In this document: piece after piece, positions 3,113 to 35,148 of the stretch
Numbering within the stretch: position 1 is the first letter of the stretch
Layout of the letters: each line of letters opens with the position of its first letter
Source: Bacillota bacterium
GTDB lineage: Bacteria; Bacillota_I; Bacilli_A; Acholeplasmatales; Acholeplasmataceae
DNA: 35,312 nucleotides
Direction of reading: 5' to 3'
Assembly: GCA_018817915.1 (NCBI GenBank)
Contig: JAHISX010000052.1
Location: 1 to 35,312, forward strand
Notes under the pieces: model-generated
The model's database searches: none
The model's input: the letters and a program-made list of their open reading frames with translations, nothing else
What the model was told of the DNA's origin: nothing
Program-made: the position numbers and the translations under genes

Positions 3113-5620
3113 ATGATCACAAAGCAAATCATTAAAATTAAAAAAAATGAGGGATATTATTTTCCATTGTTCAATCTCATGGGGATGCGTTCTTCAATTT
3201 CTCCATTTTTAGGTGGAGATTTAAAACTTGATTATCATCATTATGCACTTGAACCTACAACTGAAATAGATATGTATCATAATATCTCATCACGAAACGT
3301 TATATTTGATGTTGATCATAAGCTTTATTTTTTAAATGGACAAACCAATCATCAACAACATGATGAACTCATTTATGAAACGGATTTGCTATATCAAAAA
3401 GTTACAAGATCGAATAAGAGATTTGTTATTGAAACAACTTCTTATGTGCCTTTAGAAGAACAAGTAGAAGTTCATCAAATTACTTTTAAAAATATCAGTC
3501 TGAAAAGTATATCACTACAAGTCACAACTGCAATTCCAATTTATGCAAGAAGCGCAGATAATTTAAGAGACCATCGTCATGTAACATCATTGTTAAATCA
3601 AATCAATGTTGTAGACAAAGGTGTCTTAGTTAAACCTACTTTGTCATTTGATGAAAGAGGACATACAATTAATTCAACCATTTATAGTGTGTTTGCTGAT
3701 TCAAAAGAGACACAGATTGCTGGCTACATTTGTACGCTTGACCACTTGATTGACGGTGGTTCACTCCATTTTCCTAAAGGTCTAAAAAATATTGAAGAAA
3801 TTGGATACTACGCTGAAGGATATGAAGCGATGGGTGGCATTCAGTTTAATCGAATATCCGTTGAACCAAATCAATCCATAACATTTTATGTTTCAATTGG
3901 TATTCATGAAAACAAAGAACAAATCATTCAACAAAGTTTAAAATATTTAAATGAAAAAACATTTAATCAGGGCTTATTAAAATCACATGAATTTTTCAAA
4001 AAGTATGTCAGCGGTTTAGAATTTAACATCTTAGACCAACAGACAAGTCATCAATTATCTTGGGTTGTCTTACAACCCTTGTTGCGCAGATATTTTGGGA
4101 ACTCTTATCTTCCCCACCATGACTATGGTCATGGTGGTAGGGGATGGAGAGATTTATGGCAAGATTTGTTAGCGCTCATCATGATGAATGATTCTAGTGT
4201 CTATGATCTTTTATATAATAACTTCCAAGGTGTCAGAATTGATGGGTCGAATGCAACCATAATTGGTGATCAACCGGGAGAATTTAAAGCCGATAGAAAT
4301 ATGATTACTCGTGTTTGGTCAGATCATGGAGCTTGGCCACTGCTCACAACGAAGATGTATATCGATGAAACAGGTGATTTAGAATTCTTACTTAAGAATC
4401 AATATTATTTTAATGATCAATTTACTCATTATACGAAAAAGACAAAAGATAAACCTTTACAAAATAAGTTACTTAATCAAAACAATGAACTTTATACAGG
4501 TACTATTTTAGAACACTTACTACTTCAAAATCTTGTAGGTCATCATAATATAGGTGAACACGGTTTTGTAAGACTTGAAGATGCTGATTGGAACGATGGT
4601 ATGGATATGGCACACAATCGTGGAGAGACGATTGCTTTTACACATATGTATGCGAACAATTTACGTGAATTAGCAAGTCTCATTAGATTATTACCCACTC
4701 AAAATATCGTTATATTTGAAGAACTATTACTTTTATTGAGTCCTAATGCAGATTTGAAATCATATTTTGAACTAGTTTCAAATTTCAAGGGTAATAAAGT
4801 TTGGATTGATCAGTTCAAGTTAGCCGATCATTTAGACCTTCTAGCCATTGATCGCATCAAGCATTTACAAAAAAATGCATTTATTAACCATCAATTTCAA
4901 AGCTATTTCGATAATAATGGAAACAATCCGGATGCAGCAGGAACATCCTCTCTTACGGGACAAGCAATTGCTTTATTAAGTCAAACGCCTTCTAAAAAAC
5001 AAGCAAAAGAATTATCTAAAATTACAAAACAACAATTGTTCGATAAAGCAATTGGAGGTTATCACTTAAATAGCAACTATCATCAGATCTTAACCAATAT
5101 GGGTAGAGCATATGGGTTTGCTTACGGACAAAAAGAAAATGGTGCTGTGTTCTCACATATGGTGATCATGTATGCATATGGCTTGTATCAATACGACTTG
5201 ATTAATTTAGGACATGAAGCAGCATTTACACTTCTGAAGCAAAGTCAAAATATAAAGAGTCAAGTACTTCTAGGTATTCCTGAATATTTTAATAATGATG
5301 GTATTGGGAAATACCCCTATTTAACAGGTTCTGCGAGTTGGATGCTTAAACTCTTAAGAACTGAAATTTTCGGAATATCCTTATCTTTAGGTAAATTAAC
5401 ACTCAAACCTAAACTAAAGAAGATTGATTTCATTGATGGCAAAGCAAGCATTACAACCTATTTATTTAACCAATTAAGAACGATAACCTATCATAATCAA
5501 AAGCATTTAGATTACGGTAAGTATCAAATATCAAAAATCACGATGAATGATCATGTTGTACAAAACTTATTTAGCGATCTTGATGGAAATTTAGAGGTAT
5601 ATCTTGATGACAAATTATGA
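3113..5620 (+). CDS. GH94-type beta-glucan disaccharide phosphorylase (laminaribiose phosphorylase candidate)
   Basis: The 835-residue protein has the GH94 architecture: an N-terminal beta-sandwich (about residues 1-280), a helical linker and an (alpha/alpha)6 barrel. GGRGWRDLWQDLL marks the barrel start, GDQPGEFKADRN follows, and ADWNDGMDMA carries the general acid Asp495. GH94 enzymes are cytoplasmic inverting phosphorylases that split beta-glucosides with phosphate to alpha-glucose 1-phosphate. No signal peptide is present. A GH94 laminaribiose phosphorylase is known from Acholeplasma laidlawii, and the neighbouring GH16 and GH30 genes favour the same substrate here. Cellobiose or another beta-glucobiose remains possible. 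GAGG at 3103-3106 serves as ribosome binding site. Transcription should be controlled by the operator at 3087-3100, and the stop overlaps the cupin gene. Confidence 0.85.
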   Translation: MITKQIIKIKKNEGYYFPLFNLMGMRSSISPFLGGDLKLDYHHYALEPTTEIDMYHNISSRNVIFDVDHKLYFLNGQTNHQQHDELIYETDLLYQKVTRSNKRFVIETTSYVPLEEQVEVHQITFKNISLKSISLQVTTAIPIYARSADNLRDHRHVTSLLNQINVVDKGVLVKPTLSFDERGHTINSTIYSVFADSKETQIAGYICTLDHLIDGGSLHFPKGLKNIEEIGYYAEGYEAMGGIQFNRISVEPNQSITFYVSIGIHENKEQIIQQSLKYLNEKTFNQGLLKSHEFFKKYVSGLEFNILDQQTSHQLSWVVLQPLLRRYFGNSYLPHHDYGHGGRGWRDLWQDLLALIMMNDSSVYDLLYNNFQGVRIDGSNATIIGDQPGEFKADRNMITRVWSDHGAWPLLTTKMYIDETGDLEFLLKNQYYFNDQFTHYTKKTKDKPLQNKLLNQNNELYTGTILEHLLLQNLVGHHNIGEHGFVRLEDADWNDGMDMAHNRGETIAFTHMYANNLRELASLIRLLPTQNIVIFEELLLLLSPNADLKSYFELVSNFKGNKVWIDQFKLADHLDLLAIDRIKHLQKNAFINHQFQSYFDNNGNNPDAAGTSSLTGQAIALLSQTPSKKQAKELSKITKQQLFDKAIGGYHLNSNYHQILTNMGRAYGFAYGQKENGAVFSHMVIMYAYGLYQYDLINLGHEAAFTLLKQSQNIKSQVLLGIPEYFNNDGIGKYPYLTGSASWMLKLLRTEIFGISLSLGKLTLKPKLKKIDFIDGKASITTYLFNQLRTITYHNQKHLDYGKYQISKITMNDHVVQNLFSDLDGNLEVYLDDKL

Positions 5621-6029: not shown

Positions 6030-6750
6030 ACTATTATGGGAAGACCAATTTAATCAAGATGGAGCCCCAAACCCTGAAATATGGACCATAGAAACAGGTG
6101 GACATGGTTTTGGGAATGGAGAACAACAATTTTATACCAATCAAGAAAAGAACCTGTTTATCAAAGATGGCATCTTAAATATAGTTGGACACAAAGAAAA
6201 ATATGAAAATTGTGAGTATACTTCAGCAAAATTAACGACTGAAGGTAAAAAATATATTCAAAATGGAAGAGTAGAAGTTGTAGCTAAAATACCAAGTGGT
6301 GCAGGCACATGGCCAGCAGTTTGGTTTTTAGGCAAACAATTTAGAACGATCAGTTGGCCATCATGCGGTGAAATAGATTTAATGGAACATGTTGGAAACA
6401 ATCCGAATGTTGTCCATTTCTCCCTTCATTCAAAAACAAATTATTTTCATATTAAAAACCAACCAACAAAGGTTGTTAAACAAGAAAATATCGTCAATCA
6501 ATTTCATGAATTTGCGATGGATTGGAATCAAGACCAAATTACATTTTATTTAGATGGAAAAGAAGAAGAAACATTCATTAAACCTACAGATGCTTCAGAA
6601 GAACAATGGCCATTTAATCAAGAATTTTATCTCATCTTAAATTTAGCACTTGGTGGATCATGGGGGGGACCTATTGATGATTCGATGTTTCCAGTGACTT
6701 TTCAAATAAAATCTGTAAAAATATATGAAAGAAGTGATCAAATTGGCTAA
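6019..6750 (+). CDS. Intracellular GH16 endo-beta-1,3-glucanase (laminarinase-like)
   Basis: The 243-residue protein is a bare GH16 catalytic domain. The active-site strand GEIDLMEHVG gives nucleophile Glu118, Asp120 and acid/base Glu123 in the ExDxxE arrangement typical of bacterial laminarinases. Supporting motifs are GTWPAVWFLG (97-106) and a C-terminal LNLALGGSWGG. There is no signal peptide or lipobox, unlike the second GH16 at 26224, so it probably works in the cytoplasm on imported long oligosaccharides. GGAG at 6008-6011 precedes the ATG. It overlaps the cupin gene by 11 bases and the regulator gene by about eight. Other beta-glucans, such as mixed-linkage glucan, cannot be excluded. 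Confidence 0.9.
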   Translation: MSYRLLWEDQFNQDGAPNPEIWTIETGGHGFGNGEQQFYTNQEKNLFIKDGILNIVGHKEKYENCEYTSAKLTTEGKKYIQNGRVEVVAKIPSGAGTWPAVWFLGKQFRTISWPSCGEIDLMEHVGNNPNVVHFSLHSKTNYFHIKNQPTKVVKQENIVNQFHEFAMDWNQDQITFYLDGKEEETFIKPTDASEEQWPFNQEFYLILNLALGGSWGGPIDDSMFPVTFQIKSVKIYERSDQIG

Positions 6751-7765
6751 AAAAAGAACGATCTATGATATCGCTGCTGAGCTAGAGTTAGCACCTGGTA
6801 CAATTTCAAAAGTTTTGAATCACACAGGTAATGTGAGTGATAAGACAAGAGAACGTGTGCTTTCATACATTAAACAAGTCGGCTATGTTCCAACTTCTAG
6901 TGCACGTATGCTTAAATCAAAAAGAACGTATACAATAGGAGTTGTCTTTACTGAAGAATCAGATATCGGTCTTGAACACTCATTTTTCTCCAGTATCTTA
7001 CAAGCATTTAAGACTCATGTCGAAAATGAAGGTTATGAATTATCCTTTATTGTAAGAAAGTTAGGAAAGAATCATTTGACTTACTATGAATGGTGCATGA
7101 ATAAACGTGTTGATGGTGTCTATATCGTTGTTGGCGATTTTAATGACCAAGGATTACATGAAATTCTCGAAAGTGGTATACCTGCTGTATCTACTGATAT
7201 GTTTTTGCCAGGTCTACACACAGTCGTTAGTGATAATGACCAAGGTATGAAAATTAGCATGGAATATATTAAAAATGAACTAAAGAAACAACATGTGGCC
7301 ATGGTTGGCGGACCTGTGACATCTAAAGCGTTTGTTGAAAGACTTATTTCATTTCAAAAGTATGTTAAAGAATATAATTTTGCGACATCAACTAAAGATA
7401 TTGTGTTATCTGAAAGTTTTGGATTTACAGGTGGATTTAATGCAGTTCAACAATTAATGAAACAAGTTACAACAAAACCAGAAGTTATCCTTGCAGCCAG
7501 CGATGATATTGCCTTAGGTGTGATCAAAGGACTCACTAGCATGGGTATAAAAATACCACAAGAGATTCAAGTCATCGGCTTTGATGACATTGCATTTGCT
7601 AGACATTTCACACCATCATTAACTACGATTGCTCAAAATAGAAAACTTTTAGGAGAGACTGCAGCTAAAATGTTAATTCAATTAATTGAGTCTCCTGAAG
7701 AAGAAATCGATGAAATTATTACACTTCCAGTTAGCTTGATTGAAAGAGAATCGACAAAAAAATAA
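6743..7765 (+). CDS. LacI-family transcriptional regulator, probable repressor of the glucan operons
   Basis: This protein of about 340 residues starts with a LacI helix-turn-helix: TIYDIAAELELAPGTISKVL, then VSDKTRERVL and the hinge GYVPTSSARMLKS. A periplasmic-binding-protein-like effector domain follows, with TIGVVF, GFDDIAFAR and TTIAQN. I prefer the TTG start at 6743. It follows AAAGAAGTGATC (6728-6739), which matches the ideal Shine-Dalgarno region in 10 of 12 bases, and it gives the usual MAKKRT N-terminus. An in-frame ATG at 6725 has no such site. The gene lies last in the operon it probably represses, so autoregulation is expected. Candidate operators are at 3087-3100 and 7827-7840. 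The inducer is likely a beta-glucan oligosaccharide or glucose derivative (inference). Confidence 0.9.
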   Translation: MAKKRTIYDIAAELELAPGTISKVLNHTGNVSDKTRERVLSYIKQVGYVPTSSARMLKSKRTYTIGVVFTEESDIGLEHSFFSSILQAFKTHVENEGYELSFIVRKLGKNHLTYYEWCMNKRVDGVYIVVGDFNDQGLHEILESGIPAVSTDMFLPGLHTVVSDNDQGMKISMEYIKNELKKQHVAMVGGPVTSKAFVERLISFQKYVKEYNFATSTKDIVLSESFGFTGGFNAVQQLMKQVTTKPEVILAASDDIALGVIKGLTSMGIKIPQEIQVIGFDDIAFARHFTPSLTTIAQNRKLLGETAAKMLIQLIESPEEEIDEIITLPVSLIERESTKK

Positions 7766-29497: not shown

Positions 29498-29548
29498 GTA
29501 TAGATTAGTTTTATGAATTCCTTTATAATAGACATAGAAGGTGAAATA

Positions 29549-30307
29549 ATGCAAAAATATAGAATACTAAGTTTCAATTTAAGAGTCAATGTTGCTAGTG
29601 ATGGAAAGCATGCTTGGGGCTTTAGAAAAGAACAAGCGATAAATTTTATCAAGCAAGGCAAGTTTGATATCATTGGATTCCAAGAAGTTACGCCTGATAT
29701 GTACCAAGAGCTTAGAGAAGCACTTCATGGTTATGATCATTTTGGTATAGGCAGAGATATCAACCAAGAAGCAATCCCTATCTTTTTTAAGAAAGATAAG
29801 TATCGTGTTATAGAAAAGAAGACGATGTGGTTATCCGATACACCAACTGTTGAATCTAAAATAGAAGGCAGCTTTTTTCCTAGAATTGTGACTTATGTTG
29901 TGCTTGAAGATGAAAAAAATCAAAGAATTTCATATTTTAATACACATCTTGACTATGCTTCAGATGAAGTTTGTAAAAAGCAATCGATCATTTTATCGCA
30001 AATTATTGACAAAATTACCGATTTGTATCAAGCAGAATTTATATTATCTGGTGACTTCAATGTTTATCCTGATACTGAAACAATTAAGTTTTTAGCAAAT
30101 AAATATCAAAATATATATAAACAAGTAGATAGAATCGGTTTAACTTTTCATAACTTCAGTCTTGATACTTTGGGATTACCAATCGATTATTTCTTTTTCT
30201 CGAAAAAACTCAAAGATGAGTCTTTTCAAATTGTTCATCATGAGGAAAATGATTTCTTTTTATCAGATCATTATCCTTTGATTGCTGAGTTTTCAATTAA
30301 GAAATAA
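29549..30307 (+). CDS. Endonuclease/exonuclease/phosphatase (EEP) family protein
   Basis: From ATG 29549 the protein has 252 residues and the full EEP motif set: SFNLR (8-12), catalytic Glu46 in GFQEV, NTHLDYAS (131-138), SGDFNVYP (167-174) and SDHYP (239-243) with the final His. Such enzymes cut phosphodiester or phosphomonoester bonds in DNA, RNA, lipids or inositol phosphates in a metal-dependent way. No signal peptide is present. AGAAGGTGA just before 29549 fixes this start; an in-frame ATG at 29513 lacks such a site. The substrate cannot be told from sequence, although bacterial members near sugar loci are often general phosphatases. Confidence 0.88.
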   Translation: MQKYRILSFNLRVNVASDGKHAWGFRKEQAINFIKQGKFDIIGFQEVTPDMYQELREALHGYDHFGIGRDINQEAIPIFFKKDKYRVIEKKTMWLSDTPTVESKIEGSFFPRIVTYVVLEDEKNQRISYFNTHLDYASDEVCKKQSIILSQIIDKITDLYQAEFILSGDFNVYPDTETIKFLANKYQNIYKQVDRIGLTFHNFSLDTLGLPIDYFFFSKKLKDESFQIVHHEENDFFLSDHYPLIAEFSIKK

Positions 30308-30339: not shown

Positions 30340-30384
30340 TGGTACCCCCTAACGGATTCGAACCGTTGACCCAATGATTAAGAG
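30340..30384 (-). repeat. Left attachment site: displaced 3' half of tRNA-Lys
   Basis: This 45-bp segment is identical to 35073-35117. After 30384 the sequence leaves the tRNA exactly at the 5' edge of the anticodon loop, so no D-arm or 5' acceptor strand is present and no functional tRNA can form. Confidence 0.9.
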
Positions 30385-31075
30385 ACAGCTAAAAAAACAT
30401 AGAAAATGAAAATTTATATGCTTTGAGTTAGGATTTCAATTAAATTACTATAATAGTAACAAGATTATATCTATCACAAACAGCGAGTAAGATTGTAGAA
30501 GACCCTCCAGAAATAGTTCAACTTTTAATTGAGTTTAATGATAAAATTAAACAAATGAGGAAGTAGATTCAAATGAAGGGAACCAGATATGTGACATAAT
30601 AGATCGTCATGAAGTTGAGAGAAGTTGAAATCCACATCTCTCAAGGGAAGACAGTGATGGAAGCTGCCGAAGAAAAACTTGATACATTCATCCAAACGTA
30701 GAATAAGAAATATCCTAAAGTGACTGAAAAGTTGAAGAATTGCCCTTCATTATTGACTTTTTGCCTTTCTCAAAACCGATTGGATCTATACGACCTATCT
30801 GATCGAGGGTTTTAATAAGTATTTGAAATGTTATACGGACCATAAGAAACAATTTCGCAATGAAGATTCACTCATCAGATTCATTGGCACCTATGCAGGA
30901 GATTATAACCGAAAATTCCAGATGAGAATCCATAAAAGCTTTAAACTTGTTACTGTAGAGTTGAATGAAATGTTCTATTAATCGTCGCTCTCAAAAATCT
31001 AAAAGTACTAAAGAGAGTTCATAATACTTCAATTCATATACACAAATTTCTTGACACTACCATTATCAGCAAAAA
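30385..31075. other. Decayed left arm of the island
   Basis: Apart from the transposase remnant at 30657-30981, no intact gene is present. Around 30490-30567 a short frame ends in IVQLLIEFNDKIKQMRK and then a stop, probably the tail of a lost gene of unknown kind. The rest is interrupted in all frames. Confidence 0.55.
30657..30981 (+). pseudogene. Remnant of an IS256/Mutator-family transposase
   Basis: Only the C-terminal third is recognisable and it is broken by at least one in-frame stop and a frameshift. The pieces read EAAEEKLDTFIQT, stop, NKKYPKVTEKLKN, then in a second frame PFIIDFLPFSK, then back to a frame reading TTYLIEGFNKYLK and NEDSLIRFIGTYAGDYNRKF to a stop at 30981. The KYPKV, (Y)TTxxIEgfNk and FxNEDSL blocks are typical of IS256 transposases. 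Terminal inverted repeats were not found. Confidence 0.75.
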
Positions 31076-31104
31076 TTGACAATATTAAATATCAATGGTA
31101 TAAT
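31076..31104 (+). promoter_or_regulatory. Consensus-perfect promoter inside the island
   Basis: TTGACA (31076-31081), a 17-base spacer and TATAAT (31099-31104), with TGG as extended -10, match the sigma-A consensus exactly. It lies 161 bases before the GLUG gene, leaving a long leader that contains GGGGGATTAATATAAAAAAA, a near copy of the start region at 32525. Confidence 0.85.
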
Positions 31105-31265
31105 GACCAAAAACTAATAGGGGGATTAATATAAAAAAATTGATTATGCATATTAGTTTTATATTGCATTTTTTGTATTAATTATGATGAAGTAATTAAA
31201 CTATTTTTGGTATCGTCTAGATTTTTTGTATTCATTAATATTTCAAAACAAAGGAGAATACTAGA

Positions 31266-32492
31266 ATGAAGATTTATGAAGAACTTACAAACAACAAGCT
31301 AATAAAATGGGGTGTTTCATTATATATATTGCAAATTATGTTCAGTTCTATTCTTATAATTATATTTGGACTACCATTATTTAATGTTTTTTTTGTTGCT
31401 ACTCAATCAGCATTATTAGCCATTTTTGTATATTTTCTTTTGACCAAAAGATTTGTTATTCTATATAGATATTCATTATTAATCAGTCTGTTTTCACTGC
31501 TCATCATTTCATCAATCTTTTCTTTAGTTTCCTTATCCTATATAGAGTATGGAACTATTATGATTAATAAAATTGAGGATCTAAATAGAATTAACTGGAA
31601 TCCTTCTGGTAATTTCAAACTAAATAATGACATATTTTATGACAGTTCAATAACAAATGAAGAACCTTGTATAATAAAAGAATTTAATGGAATATTTGAT
31701 GGTAATGGATATACAATTTATGACTTAAATAAACCGCTCTTTTGTACCATTTTAGACGCTGATATAAAAAACATTTATTTGAGAAATGTGAATATAAATG
31801 TTGATGAGTATTCGGTGCCTAGATTTGGAACTATAGCACTGATTAATAGGGGAATAATTGAGAACGTTCATGTTTTTGGCAATATCTCAGGAAGCACTTC
31901 GACAGGGGGATTGATCGGTTACAATCAAGGTACAATAAATAATTCATCATTTAGTGGAATAATTGATTCACCATTATCTAGTCAAAATGGAGGAATCACA
32001 TCGCTAAACGAAGGTATTATTAGTGCTTCTTACAGTAAGGGTAGTATTAACGGAAACGTAGGGGTAGGTGGGATAAGTGGAGTTTCTAGTGGTGGATCAA
32101 TAGTCAATTGTTACACTAAAATGAATATTAATGGAAATATTCATGTCAGCGGTATAGTAGGTTATCTTTTAAAGAATGTCAATCTCGATGGATTGATAGT
32201 ATATGGCAACATTACAGCTAACGAATATATTGGAGTTGTTACAAGTAGTGATCATTTGTATGCATTTAATGTTCTGTTTACAGGACAAATATATTCTTCA
32301 GATTATAGTTATGAAGAAAGTGTTTTTTACAGTGCAGATCAGGCTTTTTATGTACCATCAGAAAACTATGTTGATATTATTTTACTTGATGATTCATTTT
32401 ATTTAAATCTATTAGGATTAAATCAAAATATTTGGGCATATAATTATGAAAATAACATTGTTTTACCGTACTTGAGTAACAATATTGAGTAA
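31266..32492 (+). CDS. Membrane-anchored GLUG-repeat protein
   Basis: The 408-residue protein has three to four N-terminal hydrophobic helices (about 13-95), followed by a repeat region (about 105-340) with GLUG-like units: GGLIGYNQG, GGITSLNEG, GGISGVSSGG, SGIVGYLLKN. These predict a beta-helix outside the cell. GLUG motifs occur in surface adhesins and IgA-protease-like proteins; no catalytic residues are seen here. AAAGGAG at 31250-31256 precedes the ATG. The gene and the next one are probably co-transcribed from the strong promoter at 31076. It is island cargo, perhaps a host- or surface-interaction protein. Confidence 0.75.
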   Translation: MKIYEELTNNKLIKWGVSLYILQIMFSSILIIIFGLPLFNVFFVATQSALLAIFVYFLLTKRFVILYRYSLLISLFSLLIISSIFSLVSLSYIEYGTIMINKIEDLNRINWNPSGNFKLNNDIFYDSSITNEEPCIIKEFNGIFDGNGYTIYDLNKPLFCTILDADIKNIYLRNVNINVDEYSVPRFGTIALINRGIIENVHVFGNISGSTSTGGLIGYNQGTINNSSFSGIIDSPLSSQNGGITSLNEGIISASYSKGSINGNVGVGGISGVSSGGSIVNCYTKMNINGNIHVSGIVGYLLKNVNLDGLIVYGNITANEYIGVVTSSDHLYAFNVLFTGQIYSSDYSYEESVFYSADQAFYVPSENYVDIILLDDSFYLNLLGLNQNIWAYNYENNIVLPYLSNNIE

Positions 32493-32538
32493 TAAAATGT
32501 AGAGAATAAAAATTGCAAAAAAAATGGGGGATTAATAA

Positions 32539-34344
32539 ATGAAAAAAATATTAACTTTTTTAGCTTTACTAAACTTTGTTTTTTTGGTGTCAAATAAAAT
32601 TGAAATATATGCTGAAACGATTTCTAAGATTGCCACACCAATTGTAGAATTAGATAAAAAAATTACTATTCCACTTGAACCTACAGATCCGATTTTCACA
32701 CCTTTAGCAGTACCATCATGTGTTATAAGTCCAATATTTTGTATCGTTGATGATGGTGATGGTAGTAGTCCAACTGTTGAATCAATGACTATCAATGTCG
32801 ATAATTATGGAGCAAATTTCACCAACATTCAAATGCAACCTGAAGATACATGGAAATTTAATTTTGTCGCAGAGAAAACCGAATATTATAAATTCGCGTT
32901 TTATAGTTATCCTAATACATTATCAGTAAACGTCAAACACGATTCTTTAATTGTTGCATCTGGAATGACAAATGACTCATATATTGAAGATTCTTCCGGA
33001 AATGATGAATATCTTTTAACGCAAGGATTATTATACACAATTACTGTTGTAAATGATAACAATTTAACAGAATTCTCTGTTTCGGTTAAAAGAGATGATA
33101 TATCTACTCTGAAACACCCTTTATTAATTTCTTCAAATTCTGATCAGCTTTTCTCAGTAGAATATATTGGAGATATTGACTATTATAAAGTGTATAACAC
33201 TGAAAAATACTTAATGCTTTTCTCTGAGTCTATAACCGGAGCCAATTTAGATTTAGAGTCATCATTGTACCTATGTTATACTAGCACATGTTTGAGCAAA
33301 GGTTTATTTGCTGAAAGCGATAACAACATAACTGAAACTAATACATTACTTGGTAATATGTCCGTATTGGATTTTGGATATGACTTAGACTTAACATATT
33401 ATCAAAATAGATATTTTTTATTGGTTTTATCAGATGTTGATAGCATCTCATCAGGAAGTTATAATTTGATCTCTGATGCATATTCTTCAAGAAATATCAT
33501 AATTGATCCATCTAATTGGGTGAGTGAAGAAATGTACCCAGATGAGAGTCTTTTTCAACTTTTTACAGTTACTGGTAATGCTTCCGGATTTGATAATTTT
33601 AGCAAAATTGGATATTACAAATATTCCTATTATGCGATAGGTGACAATGTAAATATTTATACTTTATATGTTGATTGGCAAATGTTTGTTGAATGGATTG
33701 ATGTAAACACAATGGTTTTTGGAGTTGAATATCTCCATTCTGATATTTATAAATACAGTCCAACTACACAAACAATTATTTGGCATGGGGCTTTACAACC
33801 TACATCTGGTGACATGAAAGATGTACGATTGTTTTATGCAAGTGATTATTTAGTGTCCTCATTAGGTGTCTATGATAATGCATCTTACACAGTGAATAGT
33901 TATGAAGATGCAATTGTTGCATTTACATACAACTTCACAAAATCATTAATTCCATCTTCTGTGTATATTGATGCAGCTATAGCTGCAATAGAGTCTTTTT
34001 TTAGCATATATGAGACTTACACATATCAAAATATGGTGTTTGAATATGATGGGAATTTTGTGGAAAACAATGATATAACAATATTTCAAAATAGTTCCGT
34101 CTATAGTTTCAACCTATTTTATGAGGATTATTATTATTTGAGATTAGGTACATCATATTCATTACCTGGAGAAATATACGATTTAAGAACAGTTCACTCG
34201 AAATTACAAGTAACTTCATTTGGTGAATCGAATCCATTCTATCAAATTAATTTTAAAATTGACTTATCAAATAGTAATGCTCCATATGATTATCTCACCA
34301 TAACATATTCAAATGATGGGACATACGAAATGATTCCTAGTTAA
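32539..34344 (+). CDS. Large secreted protein of unknown function
   Basis: The 601-residue protein has a signal peptide (cleavage near YAE, residue 25) and no membrane helix or lipobox afterwards. The body is rich in Tyr, Ser, Asp and beta-branched residues, as in extracellular beta proteins. Residues about 80-185 (FNFVAEKTEYYKFAFYSYPN) look like a pre-peptidase C-terminal-type beta-sandwich, and a second similar stretch occurs near 205-310 (FSVEYIGDIDYYKVY). I recognise no catalytic domain. It starts 46 bases after the GLUG gene, with GGGGGA before the ATG. Confidence 0.7.
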   Translation: MKKILTFLALLNFVFLVSNKIEIYAETISKIATPIVELDKKITIPLEPTDPIFTPLAVPSCVISPIFCIVDDGDGSSPTVESMTINVDNYGANFTNIQMQPEDTWKFNFVAEKTEYYKFAFYSYPNTLSVNVKHDSLIVASGMTNDSYIEDSSGNDEYLLTQGLLYTITVVNDNNLTEFSVSVKRDDISTLKHPLLISSNSDQLFSVEYIGDIDYYKVYNTEKYLMLFSESITGANLDLESSLYLCYTSTCLSKGLFAESDNNITETNTLLGNMSVLDFGYDLDLTYYQNRYFLLVLSDVDSISSGSYNLISDAYSSRNIIIDPSNWVSEEMYPDESLFQLFTVTGNASGFDNFSKIGYYKYSYYAIGDNVNIYTLYVDWQMFVEWIDVNTMVFGVEYLHSDIYKYSPTTQTIIWHGALQPTSGDMKDVRLFYASDYLVSSLGVYDNASYTVNSYEDAIVAFTYNFTKSLIPSSVYIDAAIAAIESFFSIYETYTYQNMVFEYDGNFVENNDITIFQNSSVYSFNLFYEDYYYLRLGTSYSLPGEIYDLRTVHSKLQVTSFGESNPFYQINFKIDLSNSNAPYDYLTITYSNDGTYEMIPS

Positions 34345-34574
34345 ATTAGTTATCGCACATTTGTATATTTCGTTGTATAAATGAAGAATCAATCATTATT
34401 TAAAACAGTAGAAAATCACGAACAATGATTGCTCAAATATTATATGAAAGTTAAGGCAGTCATTTTTGTAACAAAATATTTGAACAAAGCTGAACAATTA
34501 AATTGAATATACACTCTCAAACTTGATATATGCTGTTTCAATCTGTAGCGATCAATACGATAATATAAGGAGGA
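34345..34574. other. Gene-free stretch in the right arm of the island
   Basis: Between the secreted protein and the regulator no convincing gene is visible. CAATCATT (34390-34397) and AATGATTG (34424-34431) form a weak inverted repeat. No terminator with a T-run follows the secreted-protein gene directly. Confidence 0.5.
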
Positions 34575-34721
34575 ATGTTTATTCTTTATGTCACTGGTGT
34601 ATACCATCCAACACTTATGAAAATTGTCATCATGTTTGCATCTGGTATTACATTTGACAGTCTACTTACTTATTGTATGTTTGTATGGATGTTAAAGAGA
34701 AGAAATATTAAGTTAGTATAG
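34575..34721 (+). CDS. Possible 48-residue membrane peptide or gene fragment
   Basis: A short frame starts at ATG 34575 directly after AAGGAGG (spacing only about two bases, which is poor) and ends at TAG 34721. The product has one hydrophobic stretch and the basic end KRRNIKLV. It may be the tail of a decayed membrane protein. The following hairpin at 34736 would terminate it. Low confidence. Confidence 0.3.
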   Translation: MFILYVTGVYHPTLMKIVIMFASGITFDSLLTYCMFVWMLKRRNIKLV

Positions 34722-34950
34722 AACCAAAACAAAAAAGGCAAATCAAAATATTTGCCTCTTTTTTTGACAAACCTAAGAAATAATCTGCAGTAGTATCTAG
34801 TGCTTTGACAAAATCTACAATCTGTTGTTGATTTAACATCCGTGTACCAGATTCGTACTTTGAGACTTGGCTACGGGTAACATTGATGAATTTTCCGACC
34901 TGTTCTTGAGTTAAACCTCTATTTATTCGGATTTCTTTGAGTTTTAACAT
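34708..34950 (-). CDS. Cro/CI (XRE)-type helix-turn-helix regulator
   Basis: The 80-residue protein has an almost complete HTH_3 domain (residues 3-60): IRINRGLTQEQVGKFINVTR, QVSKYESGTRM and TADYFLGLS. AAAGGAGC precedes its ATG at 34950. Such regulators typically control lysogeny or partner genes of mobile elements. After residue 61 the reading frame runs through a hairpin terminator (34736-34765), and the tail KEANILICLFCF looks unlike a protein domain, so the original C-terminus may have been lost. It stands near the tRNA end of the island, transcribed leftward. Confidence 0.88.
   Translation of the reverse strand: MLKLKEIRINRGLTQEQVGKFINVTRSQVSKYESGTRMLNQQQIVDFVKALDTTADYFLGLSKKEANILICLFCFGSILT
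34736..34765. terminator. Bidirectional hairpin terminator
   Basis: AGGCAAAT (34736-34743) and ATTTGCCT (34750-34757) form an 8-bp stem with a T7 run on the plus side and an A6 run on the other, so it can work both ways. It lies inside the 3' end of the regulator frame. Confidence 0.75.
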
Positions 34951-35072
34951 AGAAACGCTCCTTTCTTGTTGACTTTATGACTACTTTCATTTATTGTGGA
35001 AGTATGCCAATATGGCAACTAAGCGTTCGCTTGCCTGCGATGCTAAAAAACTAAGATCCTATTAATTATAAA

Positions 35073-35117
35073 TGGTACCCCCTAACGGATTCGAACCGTT
35101 GACCCAATGATTAAGAG
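35073..35117 (-). repeat. Right attachment site inside the intact tRNA-Lys
   Basis: This is the second copy of the 45-bp direct repeat at 30340-30384. It covers CCA, the acceptor 3' strand, T-arm, variable loop and anticodon arm up to base 32 of the tRNA. Confidence 0.9.
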
Positions 35118-35148
35118 TCATTTGCTCTACCAGCTGAGCTAAGGAGGC
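35073..35148 (-). tRNA. tRNA-Lys (anticodon CUU)
   Basis: The minus-strand sequence folds as a full 76-base cloverleaf with encoded CCA. The acceptor GCCTCCT pairs with AGGGGGT (two G-U pairs, including 1-72). The D stem is GCTC/GAGC and the anticodon stem AATGA/TCATT with loop CTCTTAA (anticodon CTT). The T stem AACGG/CCGTT carries the loop TTCGAAT. It reads AAG lysine codons. Its 3' half is duplicated at the far end of the island, so its present 3' half probably came in with the element. Confidence 0.97.

Follow-up and report, generated by a model that had tools for sequence, protein, structure and literature searches.

The question raised by this locus is how a short stretch of DNA with no integrase gene came to lie between a tRNA-Lys(CUU) gene and an exact copy of its 3' half, and what kind of element it represents.

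Boundaries of the island

The window (the whole stretch of DNA analysed, 35,312 nt, which is also the entire contig) contains a single tRNA gene, an intact tRNA-Lys(CTT) found by ARAGORN on the minus strand at positions 35073-35148. Nucleotides 30340-30384 (minus strand) are identical to 35073-35117 in 45 of 45 positions. The repeat corresponds to tRNA positions 32-76, from the base that opens the 7-nt anticodon loop (CTCTTAA) to the CCA end, as the first-pass annotation had stated in placing the start of the duplication exactly at the anticodon loop. An exact match of this length in 35 kb is far beyond chance. The two tRNA halves enclose 4,688 bp, in which three genes are intact and a transposase survives as a relic. 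The copy at 30340-30384 marks the original half of the host, displaced to the far end of the insert, and the bases 35073-35117 of the present gene would have been contributed by the element.

The contig ends 164 bp upstream of the tRNA-Lys gene, within a repeat, so the far side of the tRNA lies outside the view. The same sequence is found, inverted, at both contig ends (46-157 and 35216-35312), as well as at the ends of several other contigs, and looks like a repeated promoter region (possibly of an rRNA operon) that interrupted the assembly; on contig C75, a tRNA-Trp gene has its upstream region in common with tRNA-Lys. Most of the remaining window (1666-27366) resembles, judging from the translations, a glucan utilisation locus with glycoside-hydrolase-like proteins, a LacI-type regulator, and several sugar ABC transporter genes.

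Empty sites in congeners

On the left, the island is bordered by a chromosomal gene of the exonuclease/endonuclease/phosphatase family (29513-30307, plus strand; PF03372, E 2e-14), which is conserved across the genus; named relatives assign this genus to the Acholeplasmataceae. The first-pass annotation had proposed a comparison with relatives in which the tRNA-Lys site is empty, and nine such congeners were found (L035, L036, L037, L038, L040, L041, L043, L044, and L045). In each of them the exonuclease-family gene is followed by a short spacer (about 350 bases in L043, tens of bases in the others) and a single intact tRNA-Lys(CUU) gene in the same orientation, and none of the nine has a second tRNA-Lys half at the site. 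Two further congeners (G007 and G008) have gained a few genes between the exonuclease-family gene and tRNA-Lys and yet have a single tRNA half, so gene gain at this place does not by itself produce one. The gap in these genomes (L033 3170-4974 and L034 4940-6736) holds three genes, one of them resembling endonuclease I. Given the empty sites of the congeners and the genes gained in G007 and G008 without a half, the second half seen in the window is the mark of an insertion rather than of an old duplication.

Genes of the island

The first feature inside the displaced half is the broken C-terminal end of an IS256/Mutator-family transposase (about 30609-30981, plus strand), recognised in two pieces lying in different frames (PF00872, E 0.0017 and 0.018, both below the curated cut-off). 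Copies in two congeners, G019 (in a 410-aa frame) and G011, match it with 83% identity over 63-64 aa. The next gene (31266-32492, plus strand) encodes a protein of 408 aa whose N-terminus looks membrane-like and which contains repeats of the M26_N/GLUG type (PF05342, E 1.4e-13). Its full-length homologues (42-43% identity) are ordinary chromosomal genes in genomes of another family, and the protein is thus probably cargo and not a virion component. It is followed by an open frame for a 601-aa protein (32539-34344, plus strand) with an apparent signal sequence, an orphan passenger gene for which Pfam and PHROG searches gave no match and a search of 160 genomes gave one weak partial match; the single-sequence fold prediction was uninformative (pLDDT 30). 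The gene nearest to the tRNA, and therefore the first of the insert, lies 122 bp from the tRNA 3' end on the minus strand (34708-34950) and encodes an 80-aa XRE/HTH_3 regulator (PF01381, E 1.2e-14), whose function is probably that of a lysogeny-type repressor.

A search for the phage-integrase family (PF00589) returned seven matches in the genome, none of the seven on the window contig. These results bear out the first-pass annotation, which had described an island with one regulator, two surface-type genes and no integrase; its statement that nothing else is present has to be dropped, as the transposase relic had been overlooked. That the 601- and 408-aa proteins might come from a virion was also considered and abandoned. 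BLASTP of the island proteins with plasmavirus envelope proteins (ORF13, ORF1-type) and ATPase gave no match, and in profile comparisons the 601- and 408-aa proteins reached probabilities below 3%.

The same tRNA-Lys site in other genomes

A pattern search for the tRNA-Lys(CUU) 3' half in 160 genomes of the order, in which matches were read together with the local sequence, located displaced halves in the genome of the window (G000) and in G005, G042, G049, and G022. CTCTTAATC is present in all five, and their match to the tRNA breaks off 0 to 3 bases ahead of the anticodon loop (exactly at the loop in the window and G005). In family f3, the double matches that were opened (G151, G152, and G119) turned out to be complete tRNA copies. 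Integration at the anticodon loop, as proposed by the first-pass annotation, is supported by the nine empty sites and by the displaced halves of four further genomes, whose cut lies at practically the same base.

In two genomes of other genera the elements are complete, measuring 16.4 kb in G042 (L158) and 9.8 kb in G049 (L159), and both have a tyrosine integrase; the first-pass annotation had suggested looking in other genomes for the same att with an integrase. In G042 the order is tRNA-Lys, XRE, a 460-aa gene, a DNA cytosine methylase, the tyrosine integrase, a small membrane protein, envelope-type genes, a Rep_trans replication gene, an ATPase, small genes, and the displaced half; the element of G049 is a shorter version with the same gene order. 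The integrases and the 541-691-aa proteins of both elements match ORF5 and ORF13 of L2, respectively. The integrases are 30% (G042, E 3e-34) and 33% (G049, E 1e-45) identical to ORF5, and the ORF13-like proteins are both 31% identical to ORF13 (E 7e-63 for the 691-aa protein of G042 and E 6e-26 for that of G049). The ATPase of G049 matches L2 ORF3 (28%, E 2e-23).

In G005 the two ends of the element are on different contigs, and the element has no assigned integrase. Behind its displaced half are genes for a 183-aa protein, a 444-aa ATPase, and a rolling-circle Rep, homologous to those of G042 and in the same order. The first guess, a conjugative element, was given up, since the ATPase and Rep match proviruses whose envelope-type proteins and integrase are also shared by L2. 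With the G005 ATPase as query, no relative was found in the viral-contig scan or in the phage collection.

The slot between XRE and the integrase (or the place where the integrase is expected) holds genes that differ between genomes: a methylase in G042, a GmrSD-family nuclease in G005, an RCC1/InlB-repeat surface protein in G062, and in the window the 601- and 408-aa proteins.

The XRE regulator

The closest relatives of the window XRE are also found beside tRNA-Lys genes. The identity is 76-78% (78% over 65 aa) to the XRE of G005 and 68-75% to that of G062, a member of a different genus; no other match at E<=1e-16 was present in the 160 genomes. Between the window and G005, dN is 0.12 and dS about 2 (saturated), so the XRE is conserved as a protein. 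The identity to the XREs of the two complete tRNA-Lys proviruses (G042 and G049) is 30-37%. In 50,697 phage records, 138 of which match at E<=1e-3, the top match is an unannotated ORF of Plasmavirus L2 (44%).

The position of the gene is conserved as well. An XRE gene stands beside the tRNA in G005, G062, G042, G049, and an Acholeplasmataceae contig (L103), where tRNA-Val, XRE, and an integrase 50% identical to that of L2 follow one another. In L2 it stands beside a tRNA half: the XRE ORF, on the strand opposite to the annotated genes, is preceded by a tRNA-Val(GAC)-type 3' half beginning at the anticodon loop. In the reverse complement of NC_001447.1 (L126), this 45-nt half occupies 6535-6579 and the XRE ORF 6703-6951 (about 5387-5431 and 5015-5263, respectively, in the coordinates of the record). 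The annotated 'putative attP' of L2 falls inside the XRE ORF, and the true attP is therefore probably the tRNA half.

Palindromes resembling operators were seen by eye between att and XRE. They exceed shuffled sequences in only two of eight elements (5/300 and 7/300), and the window is not one of the two, so operators are not claimed.

Other integrases in the genome

Contig C68 (L093) of the same genome carries a 6.2-kb element at a tRNA-Val gene, with a displaced half of its own and the only plasmavirus-type integrase found in the genome. Its tRNA-Val(GAC) gene lies at 66-140 and the displaced half at about 6280-6324; the genes comprise an L2-like integrase (45%), an XRE, a weakly NERD-like protein, and others, with no recognised virion gene. 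The specificity of this integrase would be expected to differ from tRNA-Lys. The assembly is 95% complete, and it is thus possible that a helper integrase was missed. Four similar modules on contigs C66, C25, C57, and C31 (L089, L090, L091, and L092) contain a tyrosine recombinase of about 310 aa and small helix-turn-helix genes and, close by, one or two large serine recombinases of the resolvase type; they show no sign of connection to the tRNA-Lys island.

Origin of the island

We consider the island quite likely to be the relic of a plasmavirus-related provirus, in which the att cores, the XRE gene, and passenger genes were kept. This reading starts from the site, the junctions, the empty sites, and the homologous complete elements at the same tRNA, and from an island in which integrase and virion genes are absent. 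A circular element, with an attP in which the tRNA-Lys 3' half, beginning at the anticodon loop, lay beside an XRE gene, would have been recombined with the chromosomal tRNA-Lys(CUU) by its own tyrosine integrase; integration at the anticodon loop by such an enzyme is implied by the junctions and the complete relatives. The tRNA would have been restored by the half of the element, and the original half displaced by 4.7 kb, to its place beside the exonuclease-family gene. The integrase, virion, and replication genes, which the element presumably once carried here, would have been lost later; an IS256-family insertion may, at a guess, have aided the deletion and left its broken end behind. Both att cores would remain, together with the XRE gene next to att and, in the slot beside it, the two passenger genes for surface-type proteins. 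Against this, with no virion, replication, or integrase gene left, the kinship rests on the att site, the layout, and one regulator of 80 aa. XRE proteins are common, that of the window is only 30-37% identical to those of the two complete proviruses, and the G005 element is split between contigs and has no assigned integrase. The open passenger frames and the identical att cores also do not look like the result of long decay.

The first-pass annotation had offered two options, a degraded element or a satellite moved by the integrase of another element. The former fits best, because relatives at the same tRNA in other genera bear integrase and virion genes, and the island lacks them and contains a transposase relic. 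We regard the latter as unlikely. Such a functional satellite would consist of att, XRE, and cargo and be moved in trans by a plasmavirus integrase specific for tRNA-Lys. Both 45-bp att cores are indeed intact and identical, the XRE and passenger frames are open, and virion-less relatives exist, for example the tRNA-Val island of the same genome with its integrase and XRE; yet the same unit was not found in any other genome searched, the plasmavirus-type integrase of this genome belongs to the element at tRNA-Val, and the island contains a broken transposase. Its more specific form, in which att, XRE, and surface genes make up a working satellite that borrows the tRNA-Lys-specific integrase of an enveloped, budding plasmavirus, appears very doubtful.

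The complete elements at tRNA-Lys are both plasmavirus-related, and the closest XRE, that of G005, stands beside a tRNA-Lys whose displaced half precedes provirus-type genes. Both observations make it improbable that the island derives from some other integrative element (e.g. a mobilizable one) without kinship to plasmaviruses that inserts at this tRNA and has an XRE of similar type, even though the island has no virus gene at all, XRE regulators occur in many elements (as in the 138 phage records), and many types of island typically carry cargo like the GmrSD and DNA methylase found at this site elsewhere. The alternative that the repeat is an old tRNA pseudogene with no relation to the enclosed genes, which the first-pass annotation had named as the counter-evidence to look for in related genomes, is for practical purposes excluded by the nine empty sites, the identity of the two halves, and the displaced halves with nearly the same cut that flank elements elsewhere, the absence of an integrase being the one point found in its favour.

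Comparison with known systems

Taken alone, the island is an ordinary tRNA-island relic. As in the tRNA genomic islands of Islander (PMC4383910), its ends are marked by a regenerated tRNA gene and a displaced fragment, but it has no integrase gene inside. It also resembles a cis-mobilizable element (CIME), defined by the loss of integration and transfer genes with attL and attR kept (PMC5704250), in that both att cores are preserved and no integrase or transfer gene is present. However, CIMEs are described as decayed ICEs or IMEs, whereas the likely parent of the island is a provirus, and no tandem partner element was seen on the window contig.

The Plasmaviridae comprise one classified species. 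L2-related prophages are known to occupy tRNA genes of Acholeplasma, and the integrase is regarded as the sole gene that plasmaviruses share with other viruses (ICTV profile, PMC12662186). As a side observation, the ATPase of the G049 provirus (L159 8198-9121), a homologue of L2 ORF3 (L126 8750-9688), scores above the Pfam cut-off for Zot (21.6 vs 20.3 bits), which hints that plasmaviruses and inoviruses may be linked. The class of provirus is thus already known, and what is added here is the tRNA-Lys(CUU) site, occupied by plasmavirus-related proviruses in several genera, and its layout. The XRE-next-to-att arrangement is common to these elements and missing from the annotation of the L2 record, and the slot beside XRE takes varying passengers (methylase, GmrSD-type nuclease, surface proteins). 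The island is an example of how such a provirus may leave a regulator and surface genes in its host.

Compared with L2 (NC_001447.1), the island lacks the integrase, envelope, ATPase, and replication genes, including the ORF5-type integrase and the envelope and ATPase genes expected of a functional Plasmaviridae provirus. Its half is of tRNA-Lys and not of the tRNA-Val type, and its passenger genes have no counterpart in L2. Both, on the other hand, are integrated in tRNA genes of Acholeplasmataceae hosts and have a tRNA 3' half from the anticodon loop adjoined by an XRE of the same family, and the island retains the features expected of a plasmavirus relic, namely an att at the anticodon loop as in the complete members and XRE as the first gene beside the tRNA.
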